A stretch of DNA of 64,000 nucleotides, from positions 171,076 to 235,075 of the forward strand of contig JAJYRN010000002.1 in assembly GCA_021794095.1 (NCBI GenBank). Direction: 5' to 3'. Position numbers and translations under genes: made by a program. The notes beneath the pieces were generated by a model. It worked only from the letters and a program-made list of their open reading frames with translations. It did not search any database and had not been told where the DNA came from. The DNA comes from Acidobacteriota bacterium (lineage in GTDB: Bacteria; Acidobacteriota; Holophagae; Holophagales; Holophagaceae). How positions within the stretch are numbered: position 1 is the first letter of the stretch; every line of letters begins with the position of its first letter. Below are positions 9,046-33,900 of this stretch, piece after piece.

Positions 9046-9117
9046 CGCGAGTCTGTGCCTTTCGGCCCACCTCATACGCCCAAAGCGTTTCGGCTGGGGC
9101 TCCCCACCGGGCACTTA

Positions 9118-9153
9118 AAGGTTGATCCCTTCCACCCCCACCCGCAACCCCCT
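9118..9153 (+). repeat. Leader repeat, copy 2 (upstream of the giant helicase gene)
   Basis: Near copy of the segment at 7216-7252, again starting AAGGTTGATCCCTTCC and ending in a C-rich run before the gene start (16 bp before ATG 9169). It may be a duplicated 5' leader carrying a shared promoter or translation element. Confidence 0.7.
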
Positions 9154-9168
9154 TCTCCAGAGCACCCC

Positions 9169-12100: not shown

Positions 12101-15100
12101 CCCGAACCACGGCGGCCTTCACCCCCGCCGGCGAACTCAGCGCCGAGCAGCAGGCCCACATCCGCGACTACTTCTACCGGGAGGTGAAGGGAATCGACCC
12201 GGATGCCGCCCCGGCAGGTGTCAAGGAATCCTTGACTACTCCAGTCGGTGATAAAACATCACCGACTGCCCAGCCGCAGACCAAGGAGGACAAGGCCCAG
12301 GCCCGCGCCATGGAGATCGCCGGCCCCGAGCCCGAACAGTGGGAAGTGGACATGTTCGGGGAGCAAACCCACTCCCCGGTCTGGGTGGACTGGAAGTCCC
12401 GCTACGACGCGGCGAAGGAAGCCGTGGAAAACGGCCAGGACGCCGACATGGAGGCCAATGCATCGACCTACGTCGCCCCGAGCGGCCAGAAAGTCACAGC
12501 CGCGGCCGTCGCCACTGCCCCAGAGGACAGCCCGTGGGCGCTCTACGTCCAGGCTATGGGAGGGCTCAAGCAGGCCCAGGCTGCCGTCCAGGACCAGATG
12601 AAGGGGGCCTTCGCAGAGAGGTTCAAGGCCCACCACGAGCGCCTCACAGGGAAGGGCCTGAAGCTGGGCAAGACCGAGCTGGCCCACCGCGACCGGTTCC
12701 TGGGAGCCACCATGGACCCCGAGCGCCTGGCGGCCTTGCGGAAGAACCAGTCCAGCCTCGCCACCAGCCTCCGGAAGCGCGACAGCCGCGGCCGCCTCCT
12801 GGAGGGGGGGGTGGCCGATCAGATGGACGAGGCCCGCCGGAAGCGCGAGGCCGCTCTGCAGGGCCAAAGCGCCCTCTTCGAGAAGGAAGAGGAGCCGGGC
12901 CTCCGCCAGACCCTCGGGCCCACGCTCGAGGCCCAGATCCGGGCCCACATCCCCGGCCTCGCCGCAGCATTCCAGGGCACCCGTCGGGCCGTGGACGTGC
13001 ATGAAGGTGTCCGGATGGACGGTGACCGCGTGGGCCAGCAGCGGGCCATCCAGGCCATCACGAAACTCAAGCGCATCGGGCTCTTCCTGGGAGCCGGGTG
13101 CGTCTACGGCGGGACAGAACTGAGATGCGAGAAACGCGGTATCACACGCTCGTTCTATGACTGGTGGATATCCGGAGAAACGCCTTGGGTCCAGACGATC
13201 CAACCGGATGGGACCACCGGCATCCGCAAATCGTCCCATGTGTTCATCAAGGGGATGGGGAGGATGGTCCGGATAGTCTGCTCAAATGGGACATCCATGG
13301 TCGTCACACCGGGGCATAGGTTCCTCGGTGAGTTTGGATGGATCGCCGCAGGGCTTATTCAACCGGGGACCAGACTGCTCGAATCCGGTGAGCCATCCGA
13401 AACAGAGAATGACCCGCTACTAGATCTCGTCACGCAAGCGTGCCGTCTGGATTCCGTTTGCGCCGGAGAGCGCGAAGGCGTTGCTTCTCCCGCTCTTCAT
13501 CCGTCCACACACGCCGAGGAATGGGGGAATTCTTCCACCGCTCCTTCATCTGCACACGCGCTCTTTCACGCCGCTCATCGGTCCATTCTGGATGGCACTC
13601 TGGACGGCCCCCATTCTCACGCATTCGAGCCAGCCCTTGCGGAGAATGTCTTGGAACGCGGCCTAAAAGTTCTTCTCGAAGATGGTCTGAATTCGCTGCA
13701 TACAGAGACAGATTGTCTGGATGGTTGTTCCCTCGATTTGAATCCAAGTGATGAACAACCTCATCGGGAAGAAGATGGCGCCCCAGTTTCTGCTCCATCA
13801 CAAGGCGGTGCTCACGCACATATCCATTTGAATTTGCATGAGGATGATCCGGACAGTGGACCAGGACATACCCGGATTTATCGACCGTCCTTCCGCCACG
13901 CCAGCATGGATTTTTTGACCCGAAACCTGGCCGTGCAGGACGACGAGGAATTCCGGCCTGTTCAAGCCGAGCCCCAACCGAACCACCAGTCAACCCGAAG
14001 CGCTTCCCAATCTCGGAAGTGCTCAACTCCTCGTCTACATACAAAGCGCGGAGAACATCGACAGGGATCACAACCTTGGGGGGCCTTCCCATACACCACC
14101 GTCCTTTCAGTCGAGGAAGCAGGAGAACACATCATCTTCGATATCTCAGTCCCGGTTGAGCATAACTATACATCAAGTGGCCTGATTAGTCATAATTCGG
14201 GCAAGACGCCCGTCATGCTGGGAGCCCTCACGGAACTCCAGAAGGCCGGCAAGGTGCAGAAGTCCATCCTGGCGGTCCCGTCCATCGTGCAGAAGCAATT
14301 CGGAGCCGAGGCCATCCGGTTCATCGACCCAAACAGTGGGTTCCATGTCCACGCCCAGCCCGGGGAGAGTTTCGAGGAGCGGCTCCGGGCCTACCAGGAT
14401 CCCGACCAGCATGCCGTGGTGATCACCCACCAGGCACTGCGGGACGACACCCTGCGGATCCTCCAGAACCACCTGGGCATGGACCCGCAGCAGACCCACG
14501 AATGGGCCATGAGCGTGCCGAAGGACAAGCTGGCCGCCACCGTGAAGGAAGCCTTCGCCAAGCACGGCATCAACTTCCAGGCTCTCATGGTGGACGAGGC
14601 CCATGGCGCCCTGGACCGGGAAGGGAAGGCCGACAGCACCTTCTCCAGGATCCTGAACGCCCACAGCCGGAACGTCAGCCACATGGTCATGGCCACTGGG
14701 AACCCCATCAAAAATGACACCAGCGAGGCGTGGTCGGACCTCCACCACCTGGATCCCTACCGCTACCCCGAGGAGAGCAAGGACGAATTCATGCGCCGAT
14801 ATGGGACGGACGCAGACCTGTCCCGCCGGAGCCTCGCCCAGCAGCTGACGAGATACTGGGTGAACGCCCGCCTCAAGCTGCCCACCGAGGCCAACCGCCT
14901 GGACGACAAGATCCCCCTCGAGGCCCACCAGCATGCGGCGATCGAGAAAGTGGAAAGGGCCGCAGGCAAGCTCCGCACCGGAGCGGGAGGGGACGAGCGC
15001 ATGAAGTGGGCCAAGGAACTGGCCCCCGAAGCCTTCGAAGGGCACCCCGAAAGCGACCACGAGGCCATCGCCAAGATGGTGGCCCGCAGCGTCGGAACCT

Positions 15101-15675
15101 TCCGAGAGGCGGCCATGAACCGGGCGATCAACCTGGACCCCGCCGGCGGCAAGATGAAACGAGCCGTGGGCATCGCCAAGGATGCGGCCGCAGAGGGAAA
15201 GCTCGTCGTGATGTTCGCCAGGAACCTCGCCGCGGTGGAGGCCCTCCACAAGAACCTCGAGGCCGCGGGCCTGAAGGTGGCCAGCCTGACCGGCAAAGAC
15301 TCCTCCAAGAGCAAAGGTGAGAAGCTGGCTGCCTACCAGCGGGGCGAGCACCAAGTCATCGTCATGAGCGATGCTGGAAGCACCGGGGCCAACCTGCAGA
15401 TGGGCAAGGTCATGGTCCACATTGACCAACCCATGACGGCCATGACCATGCAGCAGCGGGACGCCCGGATCCACCGCCTGGGCCAGAAGGACAACGTGGA
15501 GATCCACCACCTGCTGGCCGACCACGAATGGGAACGCGCCAATGTGGAGCGGGTGAAGCGGAAGGACAGCCTCGGAGCCGTGTACCAGGCCCCGGAGGGA
15601 TACCTGGACGATTCGGGCATCGCCGGCACCCTCCGCGAGATCCGGGCCCGGCGGAATCAGGAGCGTGTGGCATGA
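9169..15675 (+). CDS. Giant polyvalent protein: pyrophosphatase-like domain plus SNF2-type helicase, with intein
   Basis: 2168-aa precursor from ATG 9169 (an in-frame ATG at 9055 is less likely). Residues ~90-185 contain AHDYGFIARTFGADGDGVDA, then DEDKVMLGF, matching the inorganic-pyrophosphatase-like domain of phage polyvalent proteins. A tag-like PIQKSEPEPDGSRWVTVHH follows, then a long charged, coiled-coil-rich middle. A helicase begins near residue 1300: Walker A GAG/SGKT (split by an intein, residues 1311-1676), Walker B VDEAH (~1807), a GSTGANLQMGK motif and a QQRDARIHRLGQ motif VI typical of SNF2/RapA proteins. Splicing would leave ~1802 aa. Such proteins are thought to enter the cell with phage DNA. 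DNA remodelling or anti-defence is plausible but inferred. Confidence 0.85.
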   Translation: MTQPITFSDLAGNVLDWIPVGWDALITPKPLTTPDLHARAQSAQPPTRIRKDQAVPSYPRARVVFHGIPIVIENPKGSVRSGIGQNGNRWRTVMAHDYGFIARTFGADGDGVDAFMGDDLKSEAVFVIHQVDPATGEYDEDKVMLGFPDEASATAAYLANYERGWKGLGSIQKMRVGDLKAWLREGQEGRPIQKSEPEPDGSRWVTVHHGSGEGQPIKVMPAKGHKGVWRVVGGAGGALNGLRLHGLKSPEEYQKEAREKAKEKRAAEREALSKMTPEERAQYKAEKAEGKEKRRQAEDAFADKVLGPEQKGLLGEDGEPEPDDPKAQAEARRERLKAAHAAVREAERKLVLDVDARVQAGIPVIGGYGPHGLDIDDLVSEADPKGPGYQRALAKRAEMAGLSADKLAEQVADIKERRAAAEGRTIPEPSGREEGEGRTEEPAPEGQQTPLPGMGGAVPKDDHQATQAANVEAHKASKELQAHKAAAVREAVKEAVQKNERLATLLQARRELREAYKASTPQAKERVFEEGYQMPIEEVAEAAAQDVYQQMLTKNMVGFLQEVGEAYPEGEPLDRFDPQPMDGLHATRGAAAFDALHEVALAAVGQGMIERDVVEAIGPEGAAQLVARGIRREFSPDDQAAIIEALEHHHLQEQEELPKVMDEAQALRAEANRLRADLAENPRDLSLAVEMQKNRLDILKEARRTLGGTLGRIEARAALIASLQAGKDQENLTLPLGKMTPEKAVQTAAALGLKEGDYKIDHEAGEAVIHLNGQGQDRLVAPIDTAALHERDLALAIKGGQLDRPGYLPAGFADRTDSRYDHPIQEAPQFRQRLQIQDDMGPEQVRDALMDHVGSRLADGERPADILNDVMSGTFMASSVPEGALKSYVNALSEVFPLQEHVKDKEGNPIYQKAEDGTEYPKMRLRTMDELAGHFDQTLDRFLEKQGAAADTALARQWVDADSPDFAEAVHRALAEDPRTTAAFTPAGELSAEQQAHIRDYFYREVKGIDPDAAPAGVKESLTTPVGDKTSPTAQPQTKEDKAQARAMEIAGPEPEQWEVDMFGEQTHSPVWVDWKSRYDAAKEAVENGQDADMEANASTYVAPSGQKVTAAAVATAPEDSPWALYVQAMGGLKQAQAAVQDQMKGAFAERFKAHHERLTGKGLKLGKTELAHRDRFLGATMDPERLAALRKNQSSLATSLRKRDSRGRLLEGGVADQMDEARRKREAALQGQSALFEKEEEPGLRQTLGPTLEAQIRAHIPGLAAAFQGTRRAVDVHEGVRMDGDRVGQQRAIQAITKLKRIGLFLGAGCVYGGTELRCEKRGITRSFYDWWISGETPWVQTIQPDGTTGIRKSSHVFIKGMGRMVRIVCSNGTSMVVTPGHRFLGEFGWIAAGLIQPGTRLLESGEPSETENDPLLDLVTQACRLDSVCAGEREGVASPALHPSTHAEEWGNSSTAPSSAHALFHAAHRSILDGTLDGPHSHAFEPALAENVLERGLKVLLEDGLNSLHTETDCLDGCSLDLNPSDEQPHREEDGAPVSAPSQGGAHAHIHLNLHEDDPDSGPGHTRIYRPSFRHASMDFLTRNLAVQDDEEFRPVQAEPQPNHQSTRSASQSRKCSTPRLHTKRGEHRQGSQPWGAFPYTTVLSVEEAGEHIIFDISVPVEHNYTSSGLISHNSGKTPVMLGALTELQKAGKVQKSILAVPSIVQKQFGAEAIRFIDPNSGFHVHAQPGESFEERLRAYQDPDQHAVVITHQALRDDTLRILQNHLGMDPQQTHEWAMSVPKDKLAATVKEAFAKHGINFQALMVDEAHGALDREGKADSTFSRILNAHSRNVSHMVMATGNPIKNDTSEAWSDLHHLDPYRYPEESKDEFMRRYGTDADLSRRSLAQQLTRYWVNARLKLPTEANRLDDKIPLEAHQHAAIEKVERAAGKLRTGAGGDERMKWAKELAPEAFEGHPESDHEAIAKMVARSVGTFREAAMNRAINLDPAGGKMKRAVGIAKDAAAEGKLVVMFARNLAAVEALHKNLEAAGLKVASLTGKDSSKSKGEKLAAYQRGEHQVIVMSDAGSTGANLQMGKVMVHIDQPMTAMTMQQRDARIHRLGQKDNVEIHHLLADHEWERANVERVKRKDSLGAVYQAPEGYLDDSGIAGTLREIRARRNQERVA
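13099..14196 (+). other. Intein inside the helicase Walker A motif
   Basis: In-frame insertion of 366 codons. It begins with Cys (CVYGGTELRCEKRG), has a block-B-like segment (NGTSMVVTPGHRFLG) and ends with a block F/G segment (HIIFDISVPVEHNYTSSG, then LISHN) followed by extein Ser. Removing it joins GAG to SGKT, restoring a perfect P-loop GAGSGKT. The recognisable splicing parts are about 107 aa at the N-terminus and 34 aa at the C-terminus, the size of a mini-intein. The middle ~220 codons are simply the reverse reading of an antisense HNH gene. Confidence 0.92.
13430..14092 (-). CDS. HNH homing endonuclease encoded antisense within the intein
   Basis: 220 aa on the strand opposite the intein, fully inside it. 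ATG 14092 has AAAGGA upstream. Residues ~10-50 form an HTH (LSTSEIGKRFGLTGGSVGAR). The catalytic region is YVREHRLVMEQKLGRHLLPD, then EVVHHLDSNRGNNHPDNLSL, a complete HNH_3-type motif with the HH pair and Asn residues. The C-terminus is basic and helical. It occupies the place where inteins normally carry their endonuclease domain, but reversed and as a separate gene, while the sense frame stays open. It presumably cuts intein-free alleles of the helicase gene to spread the intein. Confidence 0.88.
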   Translation of the reverse strand: MGRPPKVVIPVDVLRALYVDEELSTSEIGKRFGLTGGSVGARLEQAGIPRRPARPGFGSKNPCWRGGRTVDKSGYVLVHCPDHPHANSNGYVREHRLVMEQKLGRHLLPDEVVHHLDSNRGNNHPDNLSLYAANSDHLREELLGRVPRHSPQGLARMRENGGRPECHPEWTDERRERARVQMKERWKNSPIPRRVWTDEEREKQRLRALRRKRNPDGTLA

Positions 15676-16881: not shown

Positions 16882-17208
16882 ATGACTCTCGAGCCCCGCA
16901 CCGCCGCCAACCCCCAAGGCCCCTGGGAGGTCGCCGCCGACTTCCACATCCCCGAAGGCTTCTCGGACAGCAGCTACGAGAACGATGTGAACCCTAGCGT
17001 CACCTGCGATACCACGGGCCACATCCTCTACTGGGACACCGAGAACTTCGCCAACATGCGGGCCGAGGGCGCCACCTGGGACCATCGCTTCTTCGTGGTC
17101 CACGCCGACACCAGCGCCACCCTCTACTCCGGGAACGACCTCCAGGAAGCCATCCGCATCACCCGGGATACGCCATGTGGCTCTGCTACGGGGGGAGGTA
17201 GGCCATGA
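16882..17208 (+). CDS. Hypothetical phage protein (108 aa)
   Basis: Follows the previous gene by 3 bp with GGGAGG upstream. Contains NPQGPWEVAADFHIPE and FFVVHADTSATLYSGND, a beta-rich small protein. No family recognised. It overlaps the next start by four bases. Confidence 0.6.
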   Translation: MTLEPRTAANPQGPWEVAADFHIPEGFSDSSYENDVNPSVTCDTTGHILYWDTENFANMRAEGATWDHRFFVVHADTSATLYSGNDLQEAIRITRDTPCGSATGGGRP

Positions 17209-17399
17209 CCCGCGCCGAACACAACGCCCACTACGGAGTGGCGCGGCAGAGGAACGAACAGGTCTGCAGCGCCACCTTCGGATACGGAGAACTCAGCCAA
17301 TACGATGCCCGGTGTTCCTGCTGCTGGGTTGGCTGTCCCCACGACTGGGATCGCCACGACGCATCGATCCTCCGATCCAGGGAGACGGAGAAGCCATGA
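17205..17399 (+). CDS. Small Cys-rich phage protein (64 aa)
   Basis: ATGA overlap with the preceding gene. Cysteines at QVCSA, ARCSCCWVGC suggest a metal-binding knuckle. Function unknown. Overlaps the next gene by four bases. Confidence 0.6.
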   Translation: MTRAEHNAHYGVARQRNEQVCSATFGYGELSQYDARCSCCWVGCPHDWDRHDASILRSRETEKP

Positions 17400-17629
17400 G
17401 GACCGGACGCCCCCTCACCCTCCCGCCCGGGCCGTACGCCGACCTCGTGGCGGCCATCGGAACCCTCGGCAAGACCGCCGAGGCCCTGAAGGTCCGGCGC
17501 CAGACCATCACCGCAGCCGCCAAGGCCGGGCGATGGCTCACCGGAGAGCCCGGGATCCGCCTCCACACCCTCTGCAGGGCCTACAAGGTCCAGGTGTCGG
17601 AAGGGATGAGGCCCAGCTGGATCCGGTAG
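17396..17629 (+). CDS. Small HTH-like regulatory protein (77 aa)
   Basis: ATG 17396 overlaps the preceding stop. LGKTAEALKVRRQTITAAAK has the spacing of a helix-turn-helix of the Cro/YdaS type: a short helix, a turn at the Val-Arg-Arg, then a recognition-like helix. It is the last gene of the plus-strand block. Target unknown. Confidence 0.55.
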   Translation: MRTGRPLTLPPGPYADLVAAIGTLGKTAEALKVRRQTITAAAKAGRWLTGEPGIRLHTLCRAYKVQVSEGMRPSWIR

Positions 17630-17897: not shown

Positions 17898-19508
17898 CTA
17901 CCCGAGTCGTCGGATGAGTTCCACAGGGGTCTCATCGAACCGCTCGAACTGCTGGTAGACCAAGGGGGTGATGGCCTGGATGACGGTCACCCGGTCGGCC
18001 CCGTCGTGGGCCATGTGCCACTTGGTGTTGGAGACGTTCACCACCACCAGCCGGGCGCGCCCGTTGACGCCGCGGAGGTAACCGCGCCACTGGTCCAGGC
18101 CCCGGATCTGGCCGTTCTGCTGCTCGTCGGTGAAGAGGAACAGCACATCCACGGGCGCCTGATCATGGAACCACCGGATGGCATCGCCAATGCTGGTTCC
18201 GTTGGTTTGGTTGACGTCCACTGGGAGTAGGTTGTGCAGGATGGCCTCGGGGGGACAGCCCTTGAGGTAGGGCAGGCGCATGGCCGGGCGGCGACCGTAG
18301 TGTAAGGGGGAAGGCTGCAGATCGCCCCCCTCGGGGTGCGGAAGATTGTCGAAGAACACCAGATGGCGATCCGCGCAGGACGCAAGGATCGGGGTGGCCA
18401 TGGTGGCCGCCAGATACCAGCAGGAGGCACCATCCTCCTGGTAGGCATCCGCCATGGAAGGGCTGATATCCATGGCAACGCCCACCCGCTTGCCCTCGAG
18501 GCCCGGGAGGGGCCGCGCAGCCAGGCGCGAAAGGAAGGCCACCAGGGGCTCTCGGAACCGATTCGGGGCGAAAGCGATGGGGCGCAGCACATCGTGGGGC
18601 ACCAGGCGGAGACGCCCAAGATCCTGGGCGGCCAGGAACTGGTCCAACTGCTCGGGGGTGATGACCCCCTTCTCGTCCAGGGACCGCAGGTTGAGGAGCA
18701 CCTGCAGGGGCGACATCTCACCCAGGATGGCCTTCCAGACCACCTGCCGCCCAGCCGGAACAATGCCCTTGGTGACATTGAAAGGAAGATGGTTGAACCC
18801 GATGAGGGAGGCCGCCATCTCGTCGTCCACGCCGTCCTTGAGGGCCTCCAGGGCAGCCTGCCGCGGGGTGGCCGCAACGCGATCATCCCCGAGCACGTAG
18901 CGGAAGGGAGCGGCCTGCAGCACGTTCAACCCAACAGGATGCACCAGCCGGAGCAGGCGCCGGAGATCATCCCGATCCGAAAGGGTCATGTCCTCCAGGC
19001 GCTGAGGCTTCATGCCGGCCAGGGCCCGGCCAAGGACACGCTGCGCCCGGCGCCCGAGGCCACGGCCGAACACCTTGCCCTTGAACACGAGGGCAAGCTC
19101 GAGCAGCTGCCCAGCAGAGTAGGTCTGAAGGAGATCCACCACCTGGGCCTCGAATTCCGGAGTCCACCGCGGACCAGGGCCCTCAGCTCCCTCGGGTTCA
19201 AGGGTCGAGACGAGGGCGCCCACGGCCAGCTTCGGAAGCAGCTTGAAATTGGCCCGGCGGCTCACCTTCGCCGCGGAGAGGAGGAAACCGGGATCGTCCT
19301 GGGCGGCCTGACGGCAGAGGTCCACCATCTCCTGGGTCTGCTCGGCCTCCTTCACATAGAACCCGTCCTTGAGCACGCCCGTGAGGGCCACGCGGGCCAC
19401 GGACTGCTGCAGGTTCTCGGAGAAGGCCGACAGGCCCTCGTGGTTGGTAGCGTCGGGCTGGGCAAGCCCGGTTGGGCGGGTGAGGCCCTGGGTCTGGGCG
19501 AAGCGCAT
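17898..19508 (-). CDS. rsr: Ro60 / Rsr RNA-binding protein (TROVE plus vWA)
   Basis: 536 aa; start ATG 19508 has GGAGG ten bases upstream. Residues ~1-340 are the HEAT-repeat TROVE domain (SENLQQSVARVALTGVLKDG, DPGFLLSAAKVSRRANFKLL, FNHLPFNVTKGIV). The C-terminal third is a von Willebrand A fold with a MIDAS motif (VAMDISPSM) and later NQTNGTSIGDAIRW. Ro60 rings bind Y RNAs and misfolded or decaying RNAs, often with polynucleotide phosphorylase. Four Y-RNA-like genes lie directly upstream on the same strand, so this is a complete Ro60-Y RNA locus inside a prophage. Confidence 0.93.
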   Translation of the reverse strand: MRFAQTQGLTRPTGLAQPDATNHEGLSAFSENLQQSVARVALTGVLKDGFYVKEAEQTQEMVDLCRQAAQDDPGFLLSAAKVSRRANFKLLPKLAVGALVSTLEPEGAEGPGPRWTPEFEAQVVDLLQTYSAGQLLELALVFKGKVFGRGLGRRAQRVLGRALAGMKPQRLEDMTLSDRDDLRRLLRLVHPVGLNVLQAAPFRYVLGDDRVAATPRQAALEALKDGVDDEMAASLIGFNHLPFNVTKGIVPAGRQVVWKAILGEMSPLQVLLNLRSLDEKGVITPEQLDQFLAAQDLGRLRLVPHDVLRPIAFAPNRFREPLVAFLSRLAARPLPGLEGKRVGVAMDISPSMADAYQEDGASCWYLAATMATPILASCADRHLVFFDNLPHPEGGDLQPSPLHYGRRPAMRLPYLKGCPPEAILHNLLPVDVNQTNGTSIGDAIRWFHDQAPVDVLFLFTDEQQNGQIRGLDQWRGYLRGVNGRARLVVVNVSNTKWHMAHDGADRVTVIQAITPLVYQQFERFDETPVELIRRLG

Positions 19509-19567
19509 GAGGGGGGCGCCTCCAAAGAGAAGCCCCGGCGCACGGGCCGGGGCGAGGTGGAGAAGAA

Positions 19568-19668
19568 CGGAGACGAAGGAAGGGGACGGGATCAGGTGGG
19601 TTCGAACCACCGGGCTCGGTTTGCACCGAGTTCTATCCGCAGATGAAGCCCGACACAGGGCGTCTCCG
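19568..19668 (-). ncRNA. Y-RNA-like ncRNA, copy 4 (nearest to rsr)
   Basis: The ends pair perfectly over 8 bp (5' CGGAGACG with 3' CGTCTCCG). Inside the 5' arm is the conserved motif GACGCCCT-...-TTCATC, and the 3' arm has CCCCTTCCTTCGTC. A second helix pairs CGGG with CCCG next to a T-T mismatch. The apical part holds a hairpin (CTCGG/CCGAG) and a T-arm-like hairpin (GGTGG-TTCGAAC-CCACC) but no D-arm. Confidence 0.72.
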
Positions 19669-19676
19669 AAGGGCTC

Positions 19677-19742
19677 CACGACGGTGAGGGAAGGCGGGGG
19701 GTTTCTATCATGGCAAGATGAACCCCCGCCGAGGGCGTCGTG
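19677..19742 (-). ncRNA. Y-RNA-like ncRNA, copy 3 (short form)
   Basis: About 66 nt. The ends pair (5' CACGACG with 3' CGTCGTG) and the 5' arm again carries GACGCCCT-...-TTCATC. The apical part is a single GC hairpin (GGCGGGGGTT with AACCCCCCGCC), without tRNA-like arms. This resembles the simple stem of Y RNAs lacking the tRNA-mimic module. Eight to ten bases separate it from its neighbours. Confidence 0.68.
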
Positions 19743-19752
19743 AAAATTGCGT

Positions 19753-19884
19753 GGGGGACGATGAAAGGGCCTCGGCAACCCTGAAGGGTCATTTGCTCTA
19801 CCAACTGAGCTACCCAGGTTCCTTGCGGGCCTGAGACTGGACTCGAACCAGCGACACGATGAAAGCCGAAACAGGGCGCCCCCC
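19753..19884 (-). ncRNA. Y-RNA-like ncRNA, copy 2, with permuted tRNA-like module
   Basis: Ends pair as GGGGGGCG with CGTCCCCC (one G-U). The 5' arm has GGCGCCCT-...-TTCATC; TTTCGGC pairs with GCCGAGG in the 3' arm. The apical module reads in permuted tRNA order: T-arm (GCTGG-TTCGAGT-CCAGT), an acceptor-like helix CTCAGG/CCTGGG closed by an inner GCAA loop, then a canonical D-arm (TAGCTCAGTTGGTAGAGC). This is the layout expected of YrlA-type Y RNAs that mimic tRNA. Confidence 0.78.
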
Positions 19885-19892
19885 TGATTGGA

Positions 19893-20030
19893 ACCCCATG
19901 ACGATGGAAGGTGGACAGCATTTGTAGGCGCTCTACCACTAAGCTACAGCCGCCGAAGCCGCTGGCAGGATTCGAACCTGCGCTCTCCCGCTCCCAAAGC
20001 GATGAACGCTGACCAAGGGCGTCATGGAGT
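19893..20030 (-). ncRNA. Y-RNA-like ncRNA, copy 1, with permuted tRNA-like module
   Basis: Ends pair over 11 bp (5' ACTCCATGACG with 3' CGTCATGGGGT, one G-U). The 5' arm has GACGCCCT-...-TTCATC; GGTCAGC pairs with GCTGTCC around a T-T mismatch. The apical module runs T-arm (GCAGG-TTCGAAT-CCTGC), an acceptor-like helix CAGC..GCTG closed by a TTCG tetraloop, then D-arm (TAGCTTAGTGGTAGAGC). It begins 21 nt after the end of tRNA-Pro, so the two may share a transcript. Confidence 0.78.
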
Positions 20031-20051
20031 GATCTGGTTTCAAAGAACTGG

Positions 20052-20125
20052 TCGGAGCGGGAGGATTCGAACCCCCGGCCTTCTGCTCCCAAAGCAGTCG
20101 CGCTACCAAGCTGCGCCACGCTCCG
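20052..20125 (-). tRNA. tRNA-Pro (anticodon TGG)
   Basis: Full cloverleaf on the minus strand: acceptor CGGAGCG/CGCTCCG with discriminator A, D-arm GGCGCAGCTTGGTAGCGC, anticodon loop TTTGGGA, T-arm CGGGG-GTTCGAA-type. CCA is not encoded. It lies just upstream of the Y-RNA array. Confidence 0.92.
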
Positions 20126-20403
20126 AAGGGGCCCTGGGCCGCTTGCCCTGACTCCACACCGGAAAACCGGGGGCTCACGTGGGGCCGCGCCTTGCTGAAG
20201 GGAACCCGCCAGCAACGGGCGCCCAGGGAAGGGATCGCAGGGCACCCGGGAGTGCGCCCGGGCCGGCGCTGCGCCAGCGGCGACCGTTGCCCTGCGAAAT
20301 GCTGCTGGGTGGCGGCCGGACACCAGGCGTCCCCGGCGAAGGCTCATCGCTCATCCGCCGCCCCCTTCCGGGATCTGCGGCACCCAGCGGAATCAAGGAT
20401 TCG
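20126..20403 (-). other. Structured RNA region of unknown class between two tRNAs
   Basis: No convincing gene. On the minus strand several strong hairpins follow one another: GCTGGGTG with CACCCAGC as an outer stem; GCAGGGCA with TGCCCTGC enclosing CCCGGG-CGCACT-CCCGGG; GCGCC..TTGCTG with CAGCAA..GGCGC; and CCGG-TTTT-CCGG. It contains GACGCCTGGTGTCCGG, reminiscent of the Y-RNA 5' motif but without TTCATC. It may be a processed non-coding RNA or just GC-rich spacer. Confidence 0.4.
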
Positions 20404-20477
20404 TGGCAGGGGCGGGATTCGAACCCGCGGCCTCTTGGGTATGAGCCAAGCGAGCTACCAGACTGCTCCACCCTGCG
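20404..20477 (-). tRNA. tRNA-Met (anticodon CAT), initiator-like
   Basis: Cloverleaf on the minus strand with acceptor arms GCAGGG/CCCTGC, D-arm GGAGCAGTCTGGTAGCTC, anticodon stem-loop CTTGG-CTCATAC-CCAAG and T-arm GCGGG-TTCGAAT-CCCGC. The first base pair is an unpaired C-C and the D-loop is initiator-like, but only two of the three G-C pairs of the initiator anticodon stem are present. CAT could also be an Ile2 tRNA. Confidence 0.85.
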
Positions 20478-20509
20478 TCGAGGCACCCCCTCGAGGGCGC
20501 AGGGAGAAG

Positions 20510-20550: not shown

Positions 20551-20577
20551 CTAGACAAACCCAATAAATACCCCATC

Positions 20578-20619: not shown

Positions 20620-20952
20620 ATGGATCCAGCAGAAGATCACACACCTGGCGCCAGGCTGATGCGCGCCGCCACATGGGTGTTCGTGATGGGAGGATTCCTC
20701 CTCGTCTTTGTGGCCGTCGGCCAGAACATCTGGCGCGCCCATGCCCAGCAGAGGGCCATGGAGCAGCAAACCATCGAGCAGATCCAGCAGGTGCAACGCG
20801 CCCTCCGCGAATGGAATTCCGGGAGGGCCGAACGCCAGCACGAGGCCGCCGAATACCAGGAGTGCATGCGCGAGGCCATCGCCGCGCAGAAGGCCATCAA
20901 CGCGAAGCTCGCCGCCCGGGCAAAGCAGGTGGGAGTCCGGACTGAACGATGA
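20620..20952 (+). CDS. Membrane-anchored coiled-coil phage protein (110 aa)
   Basis: ATG 20620. Residues ~17-36 form one membrane span (WVFVMGGFLLVFVAVGQNIW); the rest is a charged, Gln/Glu-rich coiled coil (QQRAMEQQTIEQIQQVQRAL). This is the shape of spanin-type (Rz) or other phage inner-membrane proteins, but no partner Rz1 lipoprotein is visible, so lysis is only a possibility. Overlaps the next gene by four bases. Confidence 0.6.
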   Translation: MDPAEDHTPGARLMRAATWVFVMGGFLLVFVAVGQNIWRAHAQQRAMEQQTIEQIQQVQRALREWNSGRAERQHEAAEYQECMREAIAAQKAINAKLAARAKQVGVRTER

Positions 20953-21200
20953 GCGCCCTCGCCTACCGCGCCAGGAAGGATCGCATCGACCTCCGAATCG
21001 TGGCCTACAGACCGTATCTCACCCCCGTGCCAGAGGACCACCTTCGGGTGGTGGTCCAGGCGGTCGAACACGGGCGCCCCATCGCAGAGGATCCGCTGCA
21101 CATCGAAGTGATGCCCGTCCTCGAGCTGGCCAGAGCCCTTCACATCAGCCGGAACGAGGGCTGGGATATCCAGCCGTGGGAGAACCGCCATGGCAACTGA
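20949..21200 (+). CDS. Small hypothetical phage protein (83 aa)
   Basis: ATGA overlap with the preceding gene. Basic N-terminus, then beta/alpha segments (LRVVVQAVEHGRPI, PVLELARALHISRNEGW). No family recognised. Overlaps the next gene by 11 bp. Confidence 0.55.
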   Translation: MSALAYRARKDRIDLRIVAYRPYLTPVPEDHLRVVVQAVEHGRPIAEDPLHIEVMPVLELARALHISRNEGWDIQPWENRHGN

Positions 21201-21462
21201 ATTCGACAGCCTGCCGCTCTTCGCGCCCCAGCCGGGGGCAGAGATGAGGCCGGAGATCGCCCGATTCGATACCCGGTGGGCAACAGATGAAGCGACCGGA
21301 TGCCACAACTGGACGGGCCCGATCAATCGCTGGGGATACGGCCTGTCCGGCGTCAAGGGGCAGACACAAAACGCGCACCGATGGGCCTACATCCTGAAAG
21401 TTGGCCCCGTCCCAGAAGGCATGGTGGTCGAGCTTCGCCGCACCCGCGACGAGGCCGCCTAA
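21190..21462 (+). pseudogene. Truncated HNH homing-endonuclease-like gene (90 aa)
   Basis: ATG 21190. The middle (ATGCHNWTGPINRWGYG, then AHRWAYILKVGPVPEGMVV) is the N-terminal half of phage HNH endonucleases that begin TGCW.W.G....GYG and continue to a conserved H.CD..CVNP..L. Here the sequence switches after MVV to an unrelated short tail and stops, so the catalytic HNH residues are lost. It ends in a GCCTAAC core like those of the attC sites downstream. Confidence 0.6.
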
Positions 21463-21478
21463 CCACACAAGGAGCCCT

Positions 21479-21622
21479 ATGTCCAACTCATCCTCCTCTT
21501 CCTCCGGTGGCATCGGATTCTCCGGCCTGCTGACCATCGTGTTCATCGTCCTGAAACTGGTCGGGAAGATCGATTGGTCATGGTGGTGGGTGCTGGCCCC
21601 CATCAAGGACGCTGCGGTCTAA
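21479..21622 (+). CDS. Small transmembrane phage protein (47 aa)
   Basis: ATG 21479 with AAGGAG upstream. A Ser-rich start leads to GFSGLLTIVFIVLKLVGKID and then WSWWWVLAP, a one-to-two-span peptide common in tailed phages (often labelled transmembrane fragile-X-F-like protein). Role unknown. Its stop codon is inside the first attC core. Confidence 0.7.
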   Translation: MSNSSSSSSGGIGFSGLLTIVFIVLKLVGKIDWSWWWVLAPIKDAAV

Positions 21623-21713
21623 CGAGAAAGCTAACCGGCCCCGCCGTGGGCCTGGAGGATGAACATGACGAAAGACAATGCAGGCGGGGTCCGAGTTGAG
21701 CGCACGGTTAGGC
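21617..21713 (+). repeat. attC-like recombination site 1
   Basis: Outer core GTCTAAC at 21617 and inverse core GTTAGGC at 21707. The arms GCTAACCGG and CCG-A-GTT-G-AGC pair with two unpaired bases (A and G), the hallmark of integron attC hairpins. Confidence 0.72.
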
Positions 21714-21946
21714 GCAATCTCCCCTTTCTGGGCCTTCTGTCTCCCGAGAAGACCGAGGCCATCATGCGCGGAGAGCGTGTGCAGATCACCGCCGAGGAGT
21801 CGGGCATGTTCCGCGCCCAAATGGAGCTGCTCCATGACCGGGAAAGGGACCGCTACCAGAAGGCCCTCCGACAGATTCGTGAGTATGCGAAGGGGACCGA
21901 CGCCTTGCTTTTCAAACTCGCAGACGACGCGCTGGAAGGCGCCTAA
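21665..21946 (+). CDS. Cassette-borne protein 1 (93 aa)
   Basis: ATG 21665 has GGAGG six bases upstream, but this start lies inside attC 1, so the first ~16 residues are translated from the site; an internal ATG at 21764 is an alternative. Contains NLPFLGLLSPEKTEAIMRGE and a helical end. The stop (TAA) falls in the next GCCTAAC core. Function unknown. Confidence 0.55.
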   Translation: MTKDNAGGVRVERTVRRNLPFLGLLSPEKTEAIMRGERVQITAEESGMFRAQMELLHDRERDRYQKALRQIREYAKGTDALLFKLADDALEGA

Positions 21947-22037
21947 CGGAGCCAGTTCACCGGACCCGCAGCCGGTGAACCACAACCTTTCAAATATCGG
22001 AATTGCTGCGGGGTCCGAGTGGAACGAGAGGTTAGGC
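21941..22037 (+). repeat. attC-like recombination site 2
   Basis: Cores GCCTAAC (21941) and GTTAGGC (22031). Arms GTTCACCGG and CCG-A-GTG-G-AAC pair with the same two unpaired bases as site 1. Confidence 0.75.
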
Positions 22038-22039
22038 GC

Positions 22040-22207
22040 ATGTGCGAATCAAGGATGAGTCGTCTTTTTAGTGTCCGAGGCACCACGGTTTGGTATGCAG
22101 GCAGGAGGTTCCTCTATCGCGGGATTTGGGCGTGGATGGGATCCAAGAATGTGCGCGTCGTCCCGTTTAACAAGTTCCGCAACTGGACAGGTAGAAGCAA
22201 CGACTAG
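22040..22207 (+). CDS. Cassette-borne protein 2 (55 aa)
   Basis: ATG 22040 begins two bases after the attC core GTTAGGC, as in integron cassettes. Basic and aromatic (TTVWYAGRRFLYRGIWAWMG). It stops one base before the next GCCTAAC core. No family recognised. Confidence 0.55.
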   Translation: MCESRMSRLFSVRGTTVWYAGRRFLYRGIWAWMGSKNVRVVPFNKFRNWTGRSND

Positions 22208-22208
22208 C

Positions 22209-22306
22209 GCCTAACTTCGGCCTTAACCGGCCCCAGCGTGGAACCACAACAAAACCGTAGGACCAAGCAATGACGCTGGGGTCCGAGTTGAAGGGCCTGG
22301 TTAGGC
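22209..22306 (+). repeat. attC-like recombination site 3
   Basis: Cores GCCTAAC (22209) and GTTAGGC (22300). Arms CTTAACCGG and CCG-A-GTT-G-AAG pair with unpaired A and G; CCCCAGCGT and ACGCTGGGG extend the stem. Confidence 0.78.
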
Positions 22307-22319
22307 CCGGAGTTCAAAG

Positions 22320-22547
22320 ATGAGCGAATCATTCCGAGATAAGCTGGAAAACCTGATCAATGCCCACAGCATGGAGAACGGGAGTGACACGCCCGACTTC
22401 ATCTTGGCCGAGTTCCTGGCCGGTTCCCTCCGTGCCTTCGACAAGGCAACGAAGGAGCGGAGCCGCTGGTATGGCCACATCGCCCGTGAGAAGGCCGTGT
22501 TGAATTGCGAAGTCCCCGGCCTGCCCAACGAAACTCCAAGGGCCTAA
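22320..22547 (+). CDS. Cassette-borne protein 3 (75 aa)
   Basis: ATG 22320 with GGAG upstream. The sequence (FRDKLENLINAHSMENGSD, then TPDFILAEFLAGSLRAFDKA, then WYGH) belongs to a widespread family of small phage/plasmid proteins of unknown function. The stop TAA is part of the GCCTAAC core of attC 4. Confidence 0.7.
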   Translation: MSESFRDKLENLINAHSMENGSDTPDFILAEFLAGSLRAFDKATKERSRWYGHIAREKAVLNCEVPGLPNETPRA

Positions 22548-22639
22548 CGGCAGGCATAACCGGCCCGATAGCCGAGCCGGATCTTCAAACCACGCGGACC
22601 ATTAAGGCTATCGGGTCCGAGTTCATGCAGAGGTTGGAC
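22542..22639 (+). repeat. attC-like recombination site 4
   Basis: Cores GCCTAAC (22542) and GTTGGAC (22633). Arms CATAACCGG and CCG-A-GTT-C-ATG pair with two unpaired bases; CCCGATAGCC and GGCTATCGGG form the stem. Confidence 0.72.
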
Positions 22640-22642
22640 GCG

Positions 22643-22813
22643 ATGCAAATTAAGCAAGAGCCCTCATTTAAGCCCGTGGTGATCACTCTTGCAACACGCG
22701 AAGAGGCGGAAGACTTCTGGGGGATCCTGCTGGCAAAGGAACCGGCCCTCGGGAGTGGCCCCAAGGCCCTGGCAATCAAATTGAGTAACTGGTTCACGGA
22801 GCATTACCGATAG
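22643..22813 (+). CDS. Cassette-borne protein 4 (56 aa)
   Basis: ATG 22643 lies three bases after the GTTGGAC core. Contains PVVITLATREEAEDFWGILL and a helical C-terminus, a compact alpha/beta fold seen in small phage proteins. Stops just before the next core. Confidence 0.6.
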   Translation: MQIKQEPSFKPVVITLATREEAEDFWGILLAKEPALGSGPKALAIKLSNWFTEHYR

Positions 22814-22814
22814 C

Positions 22815-22913
22815 GCCCAACGAGAAAGTTGAGCGGCCCGATAGCCAGAGCCGCCGAAACCCCAAAACTACCGACCCGTGGCTATCGGGTCCGACTCGAA
22901 CGAAAGGTTAGGC
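22815..22913 (+). repeat. attC-like recombination site 5
   Basis: Cores GCCCAAC (22815) and GTTAGGC (22907). Arms GTT-GAG-CGG and CCG-A-CTC-G-AAC pair with unpaired A and G; CCCGATAGCC pairs with GGCTATCGGG. Nearly identical to site 6. Confidence 0.8.
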
Positions 22914-22915
22914 CG

Positions 22916-23092
22916 ATGCCCCACCCAATCCTAGCGACCTTCATCCTCCTGTTTCTCCTGGCAACCGCCGCATTCTGGTGGCACATCCCGAACAATGAGG
23001 AAGGGCTGGCGCGAATGATCGGCTCTGTAATCACGGGCGCAATCACCCTCATCCTCAGCATCGTCTGGATCATTCTATGGTTGCGGCGGTAG
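22916..23092 (+). CDS. Cassette-borne membrane protein 5 (58 aa)
   Basis: ATG 22916 follows the core by two bases. Two hydrophobic segments (ILATFILLFLLATAAFWW and SVITGAITLILSIVWIILWL) separated by NNEEGLARM indicate a two-span membrane protein. No family recognised. Confidence 0.65.
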   Translation: MPHPILATFILLFLLATAAFWWHIPNNEEGLARMIGSVITGAITLILSIVWIILWLRR

Positions 23093-23113
23093 CTGATGAC
23101 CACGCTTCCAGAC

Positions 23114-23212
23114 GCCTAACGGAAAAGTTGAGCGGCCCGATAGCCATAGCCGCCGAAACCTCAAAACTACCGACCCGTGGCTATCGGGTCCGACTCGAAC
23201 GAAAGGTTAGGC
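23114..23212 (+). repeat. attC-like recombination site 6
   Basis: Cores GCCTAAC (23114) and GTTAGGC (23206). Same arms and stem as site 5 with very few differences, suggesting recent duplication of the cassette boundary. Confidence 0.8.
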
Positions 23213-23214
23213 CG

Positions 23215-23439
23215 ATGACTTTGATTCAGCGCCTCCAGAATAGCCCCATCACAAGTTGGGCTTGGCAGATGCAACGGACGCCCGAAGGTGAAATTAGGCT
23301 GGTGAATATCATCCGCTGGCTGCTTTGCCGCTTGGGCTTGCATGACTGGCGCTATGCCTCGCGCTACACCAAGCCGGGACTCGAAAGCCATGCGCGGTGC
23401 CAGTCGTGTGAAACGAGGAAGTGGGTCGCATCGGCCTAA
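23215..23439 (+). CDS. Cassette-borne Cys/His protein 6 (74 aa)
   Basis: ATG 23215 follows the core by two bases. The end LLCRLGLHDWRYASRY, then ARCQSCETRKW is a small HDW/CxxC zinc-ribbon-like pattern seen in many phage and cassette proteins. The stop TAA is inside the next GCCTAAC core. Confidence 0.65.
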   Translation: MTLIQRLQNSPITSWAWQMQRTPEGEIRLVNIIRWLLCRLGLHDWRYASRYTKPGLESHARCQSCETRKWVASA

Positions 23440-23534
23440 CCTGACATTATGCGACACCTGCGCCCCCGTCTCACGCCGCCTAACGCGGGGGCGGGCCGCG
23501 CAAGCGGAGCGGGTGCAAGGGCGCGGGGTTTAGA
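23434..23534 (+). repeat. Degenerate or incomplete attC-like site at the array end
   Basis: GCCTAAC occurs at 23434 and again near 23478, followed by GC-rich inverted segments and GGTTTAGAC at about 23527. No clean arm pairing with the two unpaired bases can be drawn, so the last site looks truncated or recombined. The following ~60 bp to the next gene contain nothing else recognisable. Confidence 0.4.
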
Positions 23535-23595
23535 CAAACCTAAAAAAACAGGGATCAGGAGGAGATGTGAGAGAGAAGGGTAGAGAAGACTACGC

Positions 23596-23943
23596 ATGAG
23601 CTACTGCCGATTCTCCTCCGATTGCTACGGATCCGATGTCTACGTCTACGAGTCGTGCCACGGCCCCTTCGTCATCGAGGTAGCCAGCAGCCGCTACCAG
23701 AGCGCCGAACCCAGGCCCGTCTATCCCGAGGCAGGAACCGTCGGCGAATTGGCCGACTACCACCGCGCGACCCAGGCATGGGTGCAGAGTGCCCACCTCG
23801 TCCCCATCGGCATCCCCAACGATGGCGACCACCTGGAGGCCGATGGACCCGAGGAAGCCGCAGAGCTTCTGGAGCGCCTCCAGACTCTCGGCTACCACAT
23901 CCCCGCCGGGGTGATTGAAGTCCTGCGAGAGGAAGCCGAATGA
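23596..23943 (+). CDS. Conserved hypothetical phage protein (115 aa)
   Basis: The start MSYCRFSSDCYGSDVYVYES is a recognisable opening of a phage protein family of unknown function. It continues with an acidic helical C-terminus (EEAAELLERLQTLGYH). Overlaps the next start by four bases. Confidence 0.75.
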   Translation: MSYCRFSSDCYGSDVYVYESCHGPFVIEVASSRYQSAEPRPVYPEAGTVGELADYHRATQAWVQSAHLVPIGIPNDGDHLEADGPEEAAELLERLQTLGYHIPAGVIEVLREEAE

Positions 23944-24128
23944 CCCCCATGTCACCGTCCATCTGCCTCCGATGCGAGAAGGAGGATGCATCCCTAGGAT
24001 CCTTCTTCTGCCCGTCCTGCCAGGCAGCCCTAACCGCGACCGAGACGCCGCGCATCGAGCGGGGGAAACCCGTCGCGCGCCGCACCGGACCCCAGCACAA
24101 CCGCAAATTCAATAGACCCACTTTCTGA
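23940..24128 (+). CDS. Small zinc-ribbon-like protein (62 aa)
   Basis: ATGA overlap with the previous gene. Two CxxC knuckles (CLRCEK and CPSCQ) are spaced as in a zinc ribbon, followed by a basic tail. Likely a nucleic-acid-binding small phage protein. Confidence 0.65.
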   Translation: MTPMSPSICLRCEKEDASLGSFFCPSCQAALTATETPRIERGKPVARRTGPQHNRKFNRPTF

Positions 24129-24140
24129 GGCAGGCATCTG

Positions 24141-24554
24141 ATGCGGTCGGTCAAGACATACTTCACCGGGGACATCTGCGACAGGTGGCCAGACTTCCGC
24201 TACCTGGTGCCAATTGCCCAACCCCTCGATTACATAATGCGAACGAACGACCCCTACGGCGACGGCCGCATCCTCCCCGACCGGGAATTCCCGCGCACCA
24301 CCAAGGTCGTCCCCTTGGGATGCAGGACAGAGAAGCGCCTGGACCTCGAGGTCAACCTCGTGCAGAAGAGGGACCGGAGCCAGCGCGCATTCGATGTGTC
24401 GGTCTGGGCACTCCCGCGGCCCGGCATCACCGAAGCCACCGAGGCGCGGTGCCTCCTCTGCGGGCTGACCGCCTCAAGGGAACTGCCGACCCAGGAGATC
24501 GTGGACTGGGCCACACAACAACTGGTCGATCTGACCAGGATGGGAGGCGCATGA
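24141..24554 (+). CDS. Hypothetical phage protein (137 aa)
   Basis: ATG 24141. Beta-rich (VKTYFTGDICDRWPDFRYLV) with a C-terminal cysteine pair (CLLCGL) and helix. No family recognised. Overlaps the next gene by four bases. Confidence 0.6.
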   Translation: MRSVKTYFTGDICDRWPDFRYLVPIAQPLDYIMRTNDPYGDGRILPDREFPRTTKVVPLGCRTEKRLDLEVNLVQKRDRSQRAFDVSVWALPRPGITEATEARCLLCGLTASRELPTQEIVDWATQQLVDLTRMGGA

Positions 24555-24778
24555 GCCACGCCGACCAGCCACCCTACATCCGCGGCCGGTGGATGGTCAC
24601 GGGCCCGAATTACCCCGACGGGACCGGATGGAGCCTCTGTCAGCAGGTGGACGGGAAGTGCCAGCGCTGCGTGGCGGAGTTCTCACTCCAGGACGATGCC
24701 GAGCTTGCAGCGGCTGTCCTGGCGGATCACGAGACGTTGGGCTCCACCACGAGCGTGGCCACCCGCGAGGCCACCTGA
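24551..24778 (+). CDS. Hypothetical phage protein (75 aa)
   Basis: ATG 24551 overlaps the preceding stop. Contains GWSLCQQVDGKCQRCVAEF, with three cysteines. It is the last plus-strand gene here, and its 3' end overlaps the convergent gene at 24727 by 52 bp. Confidence 0.55.
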   Translation: MSHADQPPYIRGRWMVTGPNYPDGTGWSLCQQVDGKCQRCVAEFSLQDDAELAAAVLADHETLGSTTSVATREAT

Positions 24779-30998: not shown

Positions 30999-33900
30999 TC
31001 ACCAGCCCGACTCGTCCTCCCAACCATCGGTTGGTCCACCCTGCGCGGGGTAGTGCGCGAGACAGGACGGGTCCGACGCCTTCACCCGGAATCCATGGCC
31101 AGGGTATTTACAGACCCCCCCAAGGGCATCCGAGAAGTGCATGCAGTCCCCACAGGTGCGCCGACGCACAATGGCCCGCTCCTGCGCCACCTCGGCAACC
31201 AGATCGCGGCCGCCGGTCGAGGTCGACACCGGGAGCCGGTCGGGATGGGCGCCGACAGGTAGGGGGGGAGGGAAAGAGGAGGGTAGGTCTGGCGCCCCTT
31301 CGCTGACGAGGGGAAGCGCGGGGAGCGCAGAAAGAGTCGGGAACCCGGCCCGGTCGGACCCATCCACCCCCTCGAGGCCCCACCCGGAACGCCCCAGGGT
31401 CGCCAAGTAAACCCCGATGGCCAGGGACATCACCCGGTCGTCATGCGCGCCAGGGAGGGCCTCCGGCTTGCCCAGAGGGTTCCGGTGGAATCGGAGGGCC
31501 TCCAGCCAGAAACGCAGATCAGGACAGTCCAACTGACCGGTGCGGATCACCTCAGCCAGCGCATCGAGGATCATGGGGCGCGTCTTGGTGTCGGTGGGGA
31601 ACCCAGCCCGCAGGAACCGAGCCCCAGCCGCATCATATTCGAGGTGGCGGTAGACCTCTGGGTAGCGGGCCTCCTCGAGCACATGGACCACCGTGTGCCC
31701 GTGGTTGTTCCGCTCCGGGGCCACGCAGGCGCGATAGGCGCGCCCAAGGGTGTCCATGCGCCGGGCGAACTCCACCGGTGGAATCCGGCCGTGCAGGGCA
31801 GCCACCACCCGAAGGGTCCGTACCCGGAGGACGTAGGCCGCGCAGAAGTCCGTACCCCCCTGCTCGGGATCCCCCACACGGGTGGCGCCGCGGTCGATCC
31901 CCTCGGCAATGTCCGCCACGAGGAGGTAGGTCTCCCCAGGCAGGTAGGGCTCCCAGATGGTCGAGCCCGCGGGCCCGGGCACCGAGGACACCGGGTGCTT
32001 CTGCAGGGCCTCGATCCGGGCAGCGACCACCTGCTGGTCGAAGTAGGGACGGCCCGAAGTCAGGAAGGCCCCGGCCAGCGTCTCGGGGTACTCCTGCTGG
32101 AAGGTCTCCCCAACCTCACGCATCTTCGCGCGCCGCCAGGCGATCTGCTGCAGGTCCAGCCCGTGATTCGCCATGAGGGCCACCTCCTCCGAGGAGAGGG
32201 GGCCCTGGGTTGCGGGGTCAAAGGGGCGCCGATACTCAGGGTGCTCGTACCATGCGTAGTAGACCACCCGCCAAGGCATGGATGGATCACCCTCCTGCTC
32301 CAGGGCGGCCATGACGTCGGAGTAGTAGAGGTTCTGCCCGTTGGCGGTCGTCTCGAGGATGGCATTGCCAGAGGCCGGGACGGCCTGCAGGTAGCTGTTC
32401 TTGAACCCCTGGTAGTCCCGGTAGAAGGCGGCCTCGCTGTTGTGGACCACGCCGGAGAGCGTGCAATAGGAGTGCGGATCCTCGGAAAGGCAGAGGTCAT
32501 ACATCACGGGAGGCGCTGGCACCTCCTCGATCTGCTTCACCTGCGCCCAGTAATACTTGTCGCCGCGCCGCCAAGAGTGCCTGCCATACCCATGATTCCA
32601 GCGAGGCGAGTCGGGACGCTTGTCGAGGTAAGCCTGGAACATTCCGCCACGGGGAGGCAGAGGCTTTCCGAGCATGCGACGGAGTTTCACGTTGGCAGGG
32701 CCGAAGAAGTCCACCACCCAGCGATCCTGCTCCCGGCGACCATGGCGAAGGCCGGCATCGGTGATCTGGATAGATGGAAGGCCGATCCGCATATTGATGG
32801 CCAGGCGCTTCAACTGGACGGCCAGCTGCGGACGGGTGGTGCAGAACGACACCCTGCTAGGGTCAACAAACGAACCATCGCCCTCAATCAACCCCGCGAG
32901 GAGCCCCTCTAGGAAGGGGCGAGGATACTTAAAGAAGGCATCGGGGATCCGCTTCGAGTCGGTCTCGCCAACCAGACCAACAACAAGATCGGCGAAAGAT
33001 CCCCCGTGGAGCGTGATATGGGTCGTCAAACTGTTGGCGCGGTCAGTCACACGAACGCTTGTGAAGAATCCGGCATCAACATACGGCTGCACCACAGCCA
33101 TGACCTGGGCGGTCTCGTCTCGGTGGATGGCAAGCCCAATCCCAGACAGGAGGTCGCCATTCCGGAAGGCCCAACCCTCGGCCAGATACCAACCGATCAA
33201 CGCACCAAGGCCACGATCAGCGTCCACCGTCGCAGGAACATGAATGCAGTTCTTCCGGTGCGGGACATCAAGCACCTTGGACCTGCACTCCCCCATCTTG
33301 GTGATGGGGAATCCAATGTAATCCCCCTTCGTCAATTCGTCCGCACGTTTCCAGACGGGCTTCCCGGTCTTGAACTCCCGGGTGAGAACCCGGTGATCCC
33401 GCGTGAGAGTCAGGGGGAACGGCGCATTACCAAAGGTTGTGACACGAAGCGCGGCCTCTCCGACGTGAGGCGTCTCGGCCACACTCTGGACAGAGATCAT
33501 AGATCCACATCCATCTCTAACCATTGCGGGCGGGGAAGCGATAGGGAACACGAACCCGTCCTTGCCGATGACAAGGGTATCGGGACCGAGACATGCGTGC
33601 AGGTTGTGGATCACGCCACCGCGCCAGGGATGTCCAGCCTCGGTGTCGATCACGAACTTGCTGGGCGGATTGAGGGTCTGGTCCCCAGGGAACACGATCT
33701 CGAATTCGTACTTGGTGTCTGAGGACAACTGCAGGCCGGCCTTGAGGGAGGGCGGCAGGTGATCCCAGAACAGACGGTAGGTCTCCAGCAGGATCTCGGC
33801 AATGTCGCGGTCATGGGCCAGGATCACCGAAACGCGCCCGGGGTTGAGGAGGCCGTCGTCAAAGAACAGTGACGCGATGAATGTCGAGAACCCCAACTGG

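Follow-up and report, generated by a model that had tools for sequence, protein, structure and literature searches.

Cassettes in which the gene runs opposite to its attC site are rare in ordinary integron arrays and often have a promoter of their own. Bottom-strand selectivity fixes the orientation of a cassette at attI for expression from Pc, which lies near attI (PMC8946536). Clusters of attC sites without an integrase (CALINs) are known from phages, as is their use by IntI1 (Qi et al. 2023, PMC9892861), and for one Shewanella prophage an attI site at a CALIN has been reported (PMC9892861). In the literature we found neither a uniformly flipped polarity of cassettes nor attI-like ends in unrelated phages without intI, translation starts carried by attC or a separate, shared cassette pool; a search for papers on integrons in Geothrix likewise returned none.

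Here we analyze a window of 64 kb (by which we mean the whole stretch of 64,000 nucleotides) from a host of the genus Geothrix. We consider it probable that its cassette array is an integrase-less phage integron, i.e. an attI-like end and six attC cassettes located in an operon on the + strand of a Geothrix prophage, on which the integron integrase of the host (IntI) would act in trans. Sequence evidence for this comes from attC sites belonging to the family of the host, from the intact intI that the same genome encodes, and from flipped genes, attI-like ends, sharing and turnover of cassettes, and translation starts inside attC.

The prophage and its cassettes

The window is a prophage with genes for terminase, portal, tail fibre, DnaB, an S24-type repressor and a tyrosine integrase, so that the packaging, structural, replication, repressor and integrase functions of a temperate phage are all present. 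The array lies within a run of small phage genes on the + strand (20673-24778). Between successive attC cores there is one small ORF of 55-95 aa, which ends at or beside the next core box. The polarity of the attC sites, as described below, is opposite to that of the genes and therefore the attC belonging to each of the cassettes c1-c6 is the one on its left (s1-s6, respectively), while the right end of the array is a bare core box at 23434-23440. Such a unit of one small ORF and one attC, bounded by core boxes, is recognized by ORFs locked to both boundaries, and c1 is found together with its upstream attC in most loci. Outside the 7-base box, complementarity is higher within cassettes than within sites (22/36 vs 11/36), with 7 of 720 permutations being equally good. 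No integron integrase is encoded in the window; the phage integrase (54369-55478) gives a match of 22 bits only. These results bear out most of an earlier note, which had described the array as lying inside a prophage, with six attC sites, one tiny gene per cassette from core to core, and no integron integrase. The end of the array, which that note had placed at 23534, has to be moved to 23440.

Several other features of this phage deserve mention. A repeat of the form TAGACAAACC(C/T)A(A)TAAA brackets the small-gene operon (20552-20568 and 23531-23547) and is a possible promoter or regulatory element; its copy to the right of the array is retained in a sister prophage from another Geothrix species (genome G022; contigs C173 = L067 and C226 = L104). 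For the conserved gene in the right-hand flank our search found no viral relatives. A Ro60-like gene (vWA_Ro60/RNA-binding; 17898-19778 and 19590-20480, both on the - strand) is located beside two tRNA genes, with two sub-threshold matches to YrlA (Y RNA-like) nearby, at 19766-19872 and 19930-19982; together they possibly form a phage-borne Ro60-Y RNA module. The large terminase (30999-34208, - strand) contains an intein-like insert at about 32435-33595 (Intein_splicing, below cut-off), which is missing in viral relatives, where alignments skip about 1160 nt, and present in the sister prophage. A very long helicase-like protein is encoded at 9055-15675 (+ strand); its copy in the sister prophage (L104, 33-4469) appears to hold an intein at a GKT motif.

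Structure of the attC sites

The six sites have core boxes of the type RYYYAAC/GTTRRRY, with 6-7 of 7 box pairs at each of them, and their L arms form 9/9 Watson-Crick pairs in 6/6 sites. All six also have two extrahelical bases on the same arm, namely A and G in five sites and A and C in the site at 22542, just as the earlier note had claimed. Paired core boxes are thus accompanied by L arms, one-sided extrahelical bases and unpaired spacers, the traits by which an attC is recognized. In the structure derived by hand, 145 of 150 cells pair (96.7%), and 9 pairs show double-sided changes; in all slid registers pairing drops to 22-46%. An independent structural finder, which accepts a site only if its core boxes and its L arms pair and one arm bears two extrahelical bases, returned exactly s1-s6 in the 64-kb window and no site in 10 Markov-shuffled windows. 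A scan of the window with Rfam matched only two tRNAs and no attC-like family, and s1 taken alone folds no better than its shuffled versions. The minimum folding energies of the DNA are similar for both strands of a site; the choice of the strand that is used therefore rests on the extrahelical bases. As these are located on the 3' (GTTAGGC) arm in s1-s6, the polarity of the attC sites is opposite to that of the genes. The coordinates of all features are given in Table 1, where R1 denotes a covariance model that we built from the six phage sites.

Table 1. Genes and recombination sites of the phage cassette array and its flanks (window coordinates)
Feature	Position	Strand	Remarks
Phage gene, left edge of array	21479-21622	+	47 aa, phrog_1374; TAA stop in left box of s1
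attC s1	21617-21713	-	right arm (+ sense) carries extrahelical bases; loop with Shine-Dalgarno and start codon for c1
Cassette gene c1	21659-21946	+	95 aa, MNMTKDNAGGVRVER...; start inside s1, stop in left box of s2
attC s2	21941-22037	-	structure and R1 model
Cassette gene c2	22040-22207	+	55 aa; no PHROG match
attC s3	22209-22306	-	structure and R1 model
Cassette gene c3	22320-22547	+	75 aa, phrog_18819, small phage protein of unknown function
attC s4	22542-22639	-	extrahelical C in place of G
Cassette gene c4	22643-22813	+	56 aa; complete body recurs in viral contig L143 at 76% nt identity
attC s5	22815-22913	-	structure and R1 model
Cassette gene c5	22916-23092	+	58 aa, hydrophobic, membrane-like
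attC s6	23114-23212	-	95% identity to s5 across 105 nt
Cassette gene c6	23215-23439	+	74 aa; stop codon in terminal core box
attI-like core	23434-23455	-	GTCGCATAATGTCAG followed by GTTAGGC; degenerate, 15.7 bits; contains terminal core box 23434-23440
Conserved phage gene, right of array	23596-23943	+	phrog_13573; 97% identical in sister prophage

The host integron and the attI-like end

The host genome contains an intact integron integrase gene, intI, on contig C14 (464.8 bits, cut-off 265). The best relative of its product with a solved structure is the Vibrio integrase IntI4 (PDB 2a3v), to which it is related over the full length. Apart from s1-s6, a search of the 3-Mb host genome with R1 returned only four sites next to intI and a single isolated site adjacent to tmRNA on contig C16. 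This lone attC is of the chromosomal type (G000 C16:410655-410784; L069 5657-5786), directly follows an apparent tmRNA gene and is itself followed by a BrnT-like toxin-antitoxin pair. Within the genus, R1 matches occur in 44 of 47 genomes, arrays linked to intI among them, and intI exceeds the cut-off in 29/47 congeners. In the integron of the host itself, the cassette nearest to attI is of the phage type: its attC has an identity of 0.83 to s1 vs 0.72 to the nearest chromosomal site, and its gene is flipped. This hints at a transfer from phage to chromosome.

Beside intI, the strand matched by R1 is always that of intI, opposite to the direction leading away from attI (C14 and the genomes G005, G008, G011, G018, G029, G030 and G041). 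By this rule, the attI end of the phage array lies on the right, and the genes read towards it. From 12 host attI cores upstream of intI (consensus CGTCYAATTCAAAG followed by TTAGGC) we derived a matrix, which gave 12 matches of at least 12 bits in 377 kb of phage loci. All 12 directly follow the last cassette, and both the end at which they lie and their integron-like orientation agree with the prediction; the best 10 of the 12 score above the best match in three shuffled sets, which reach 17 bits. The core in the window is degenerate and, at 15.7 bits, stays below this shuffle maximum, but occupies the predicted position, and in the sister prophage a near-consensus core (30.5 bits) is found at the same end of the array. 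Judged by sequence, nine other loci join the sister prophage in having a strong candidate attI at the array end, that of the window being degenerate. About a dozen phage arrays are thus closed by an attI-like core where an integron has its attI, which would make them integrase-less integrons rather than mere attC clusters.

The description of the array as attC without integrase, similar to a CALIN, is right as far as it goes: with six attC sites and no intI nearby the array falls under the definition of a CALIN (at least two attC, no intI nearby). It is incomplete in that the host has an intact intI with a matching array, that the genes are flipped and that the attI-like core exceeds this definition. 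The intI in cis of a complete integron is lacking, the gene being located elsewhere in the host genome.

Gene orientation and translation starts inside attC

We scored the orientation of cassettes by ORFs locked to both core boxes, counting a cassette when it was readable in one direction only; the longest ORF as a proxy is ambiguous for many cassettes, hence this choice. In the phage arrays, attC lies 5' of the gene in 64 of 67 decidable cassettes, with 3 being canonical, so that the canonical orientation (attC 3' of the gene) is not that of the phage cassettes. In chromosomal Geothrix arrays it is the rule, with attC 3' of the gene in 46 of 48 decidable cassettes and 2 flipped. The difference (64 vs 3 against 2 vs 46) corresponds to a Fisher p of 6e-26, an optimistic value, since the sequences are related and the test overstates their independence. 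For 24 of 100 phage intervals there was no boundary-locked ORF on either strand. This comparison between phage and chromosome is internal and independent of textbook sites. When applied to the published phage TJE1, the structural finder gave no attC, and the canonical polarity that we assign to this phage rests on one intergenic site (1455-1520) read by eye.

The flipped orientation places an attC in front of each gene, and 39 of 128 phage attC sites contain a Shine-Dalgarno sequence and an ATG, with a frame running through the right arm into the gene. On the reverse strand of the same sites this arrangement is never found (0/128), and among chromosomal sites it occurs once in 136. The leader MTKQNAPEAGSESSA or close variants of it are joined to unrelated bodies, e.g. 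an HNH nuclease; one attC, its leader peptide unchanged, continues in frame into several bodies that are unrelated to each other. Leader peptides such as MTKDNAGGVRVER are predicted for these attC-borne starts.

Exchange of cassettes between phages

In the sister prophage the flanks of the array are 89-95% identical to those of the window, but different cassettes are found at the same locus. One of them encodes an RNA ligase (phrog_14301, RLIG1; L067, about 16990-17545, - strand); this phage, too, has a Ro60-like gene. Other carriers of such arrays include contigs with genes for DnaB, DNA polymerase, portal, terminase, tail or integrase. None of the 17 viral records with such arrays, some of which are possibly fragments, contains intI above the cut-off. 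In viral relatives that are further removed from this phage (portal 74% identical) R1 detected no attC; where the contigs reach this region, it is filled by small genes with plain ribosome-binding sites. Several of the small genes in two of these relatives (L023, 18661-21361; L022, 15779-18499) are preceded by a repeat of the type TGTCCA..G.

The cassette c1 occurs in five phage loci: the window, L118, L125, L126 and L127. L118, a Mu-like prophage of Geothrix fuzhouensis SG12 (NZ_JANHMQ010000002.1), has the whole c1 body; the viral contigs L125, L126 and L127 have relatives of mainly its 5' part. The attC upstream of c1 in the window is conserved in three of the four other loci (identity 0.76-0.83; 0.65 in L127), and the downstream attC shows background-level identity where measurable. 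Only 2 of 47 Geothrix genomes contain c1, both times in a prophage. The c1 proteins of the window, L125, L126 and L127 combine a constant N-terminal part (LPFLGLLS..KTEAIMRGERV.IT) with a variable C-terminal part, a pattern that we read as swapping inside cassette genes. For several shared cassettes the match of the bodies spans exactly the interval between two core boxes. Others, including c4, recur as homologous bodies flanked on either side by dissimilar attCs; plain unit insertion is therefore not the only process at work.

Taken together, the sister prophage speaks against fixed intergenic repeats in related phages, the finding that by the earlier note's own standard would have counted against its proposal. 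Its further suggestion, a vehicle moving cassettes between cells, agrees with their sharing between unrelated phages. The link to chromosomal integrons is where it falls short: the search it had proposed for the same cassettes there yielded no phage cassette gene or body in the sampled arrays. The traffic thus looks to be mainly from phage to phage.

Discussion

We propose that IntI is supplied in trans by the host and that its substrate is the folded + strand, the 'bottom' strand of attC in this array. The enzyme would thereby excise and insert cassettes; insertion could take place at the phage attI or at attC sites. Transcription would enter from the end opposite attI, so that only cassettes with a gene flipped relative to attC would be expressed. 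With such an entry, each cassette would come with a ribosome-binding site and, in many cases, a start codon of its own, situated within attC or directly behind it; attC may thus serve as a portable translation start. The outcome would be a phage pool of accessory genes that is largely separate from the chromosomal cassettes. Extending this to the other loci, we favour, with somewhat less confidence than for the window itself, the view that many unrelated phages carry a distinct integron platform, consisting of an attI-like site and head-first cassettes in which attC is at the same time a translation start, without an integrase; they would parasitize or share the host IntI and swap accessory genes among each other, in a pool separate from the chromosomal one.

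Turnover at these loci might also result from homologous recombination between phages, by phage recombinases and template switching, with the attC repeats as short homologies and no part for IntI. The attC arms are indeed similar between cassettes, and both the bodies with unlike attCs on either side and the c1 relatives with the 5' part only point to non-unit exchange; in addition, the viral contig L146 encodes a Cas4-domain exonuclease. However, such recombination predicts neither attI-like ends nor a single polarity nor the pairing of boxes within, as opposed to between, cassettes, and it does not account for the bodies that match exactly between core boxes, so that we regard it as unlikely. 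A relic is a somewhat weaker candidate still: host cassettes would have entered the phage once and be fixed by now, with no role left for their hairpins but that of intercistronic mRNA structures or weak terminators. The hairpins do lie within an operon and can fold as RNA, and the degeneration of the attI-like core in the window would fit. But the different cassettes of sister prophages at the same place do not, and extrahelical bases and core boxes, which are relevant to IntI rather than to RNA, are kept in 6/6 sites; furthermore, about a dozen phages have attI-like ends, and the phage genes are flipped, unlike those of host cassettes.

Least of all do we expect the array to be an ordinary phage CALIN in the sense of Qi et al. 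2023, with an orientation that has no significance. Clusters of attC in phages are published, and 5 of 6 tested sites recombine with IntI1 (PMC9892861). Yet the one TJE1 site that we read by eye is canonical in polarity, whereas the flipped orientation is near-uniform in many phages of our set, and an attI-like site is present. Among these explanations an integrase-less phage integron served by the host enzyme remains the one we prefer.

Integrons are regarded as devices by which bacteria capture genes, the attC polarity ensuring that these face Pc (PMC8946536). The phage version keeps an attI-like end and attC and reverses the genes; it appears to borrow its enzyme, and its recombination site would start the protein. 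This reading would explain the reshuffling of small accessory genes in phages. It also makes two questions accessible to testing, i.e. the origin of new cassettes from genes and a coupling by the SOS response of cassette swapping to phage release, as SOS triggers both the integrase and the prophage in well-studied hosts.

The phage arrays resemble the sedentary chromosomal integrons of Geothrix, in this genome (C14) and its congeners, which have the same attC family, the same attI core and the same polarity from attI to attC. The chromosomal arrays differ in the presence of intI, in attC sites of mostly 110-139 nt and in canonical genes (46 vs 2), and those sampled have no cassette body in common with the phage pool. 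The reversed-gene cassettes of ordinary arrays resemble the phage cassettes in that the gene is opposite to attC, but flipped genes are the rule in the phages, where attC itself often provides the ribosome-binding site and the start. With the phage CALINs of Qi et al. 2023 (PMC9892861) the phage arrays analyzed here share attC cassettes without intI, small genes and attC sites of the integron type. They are set apart from them by the attI-like end, the flipped genes that often start in attC, a matching intI in the host genome and cassettes common to unrelated phages.
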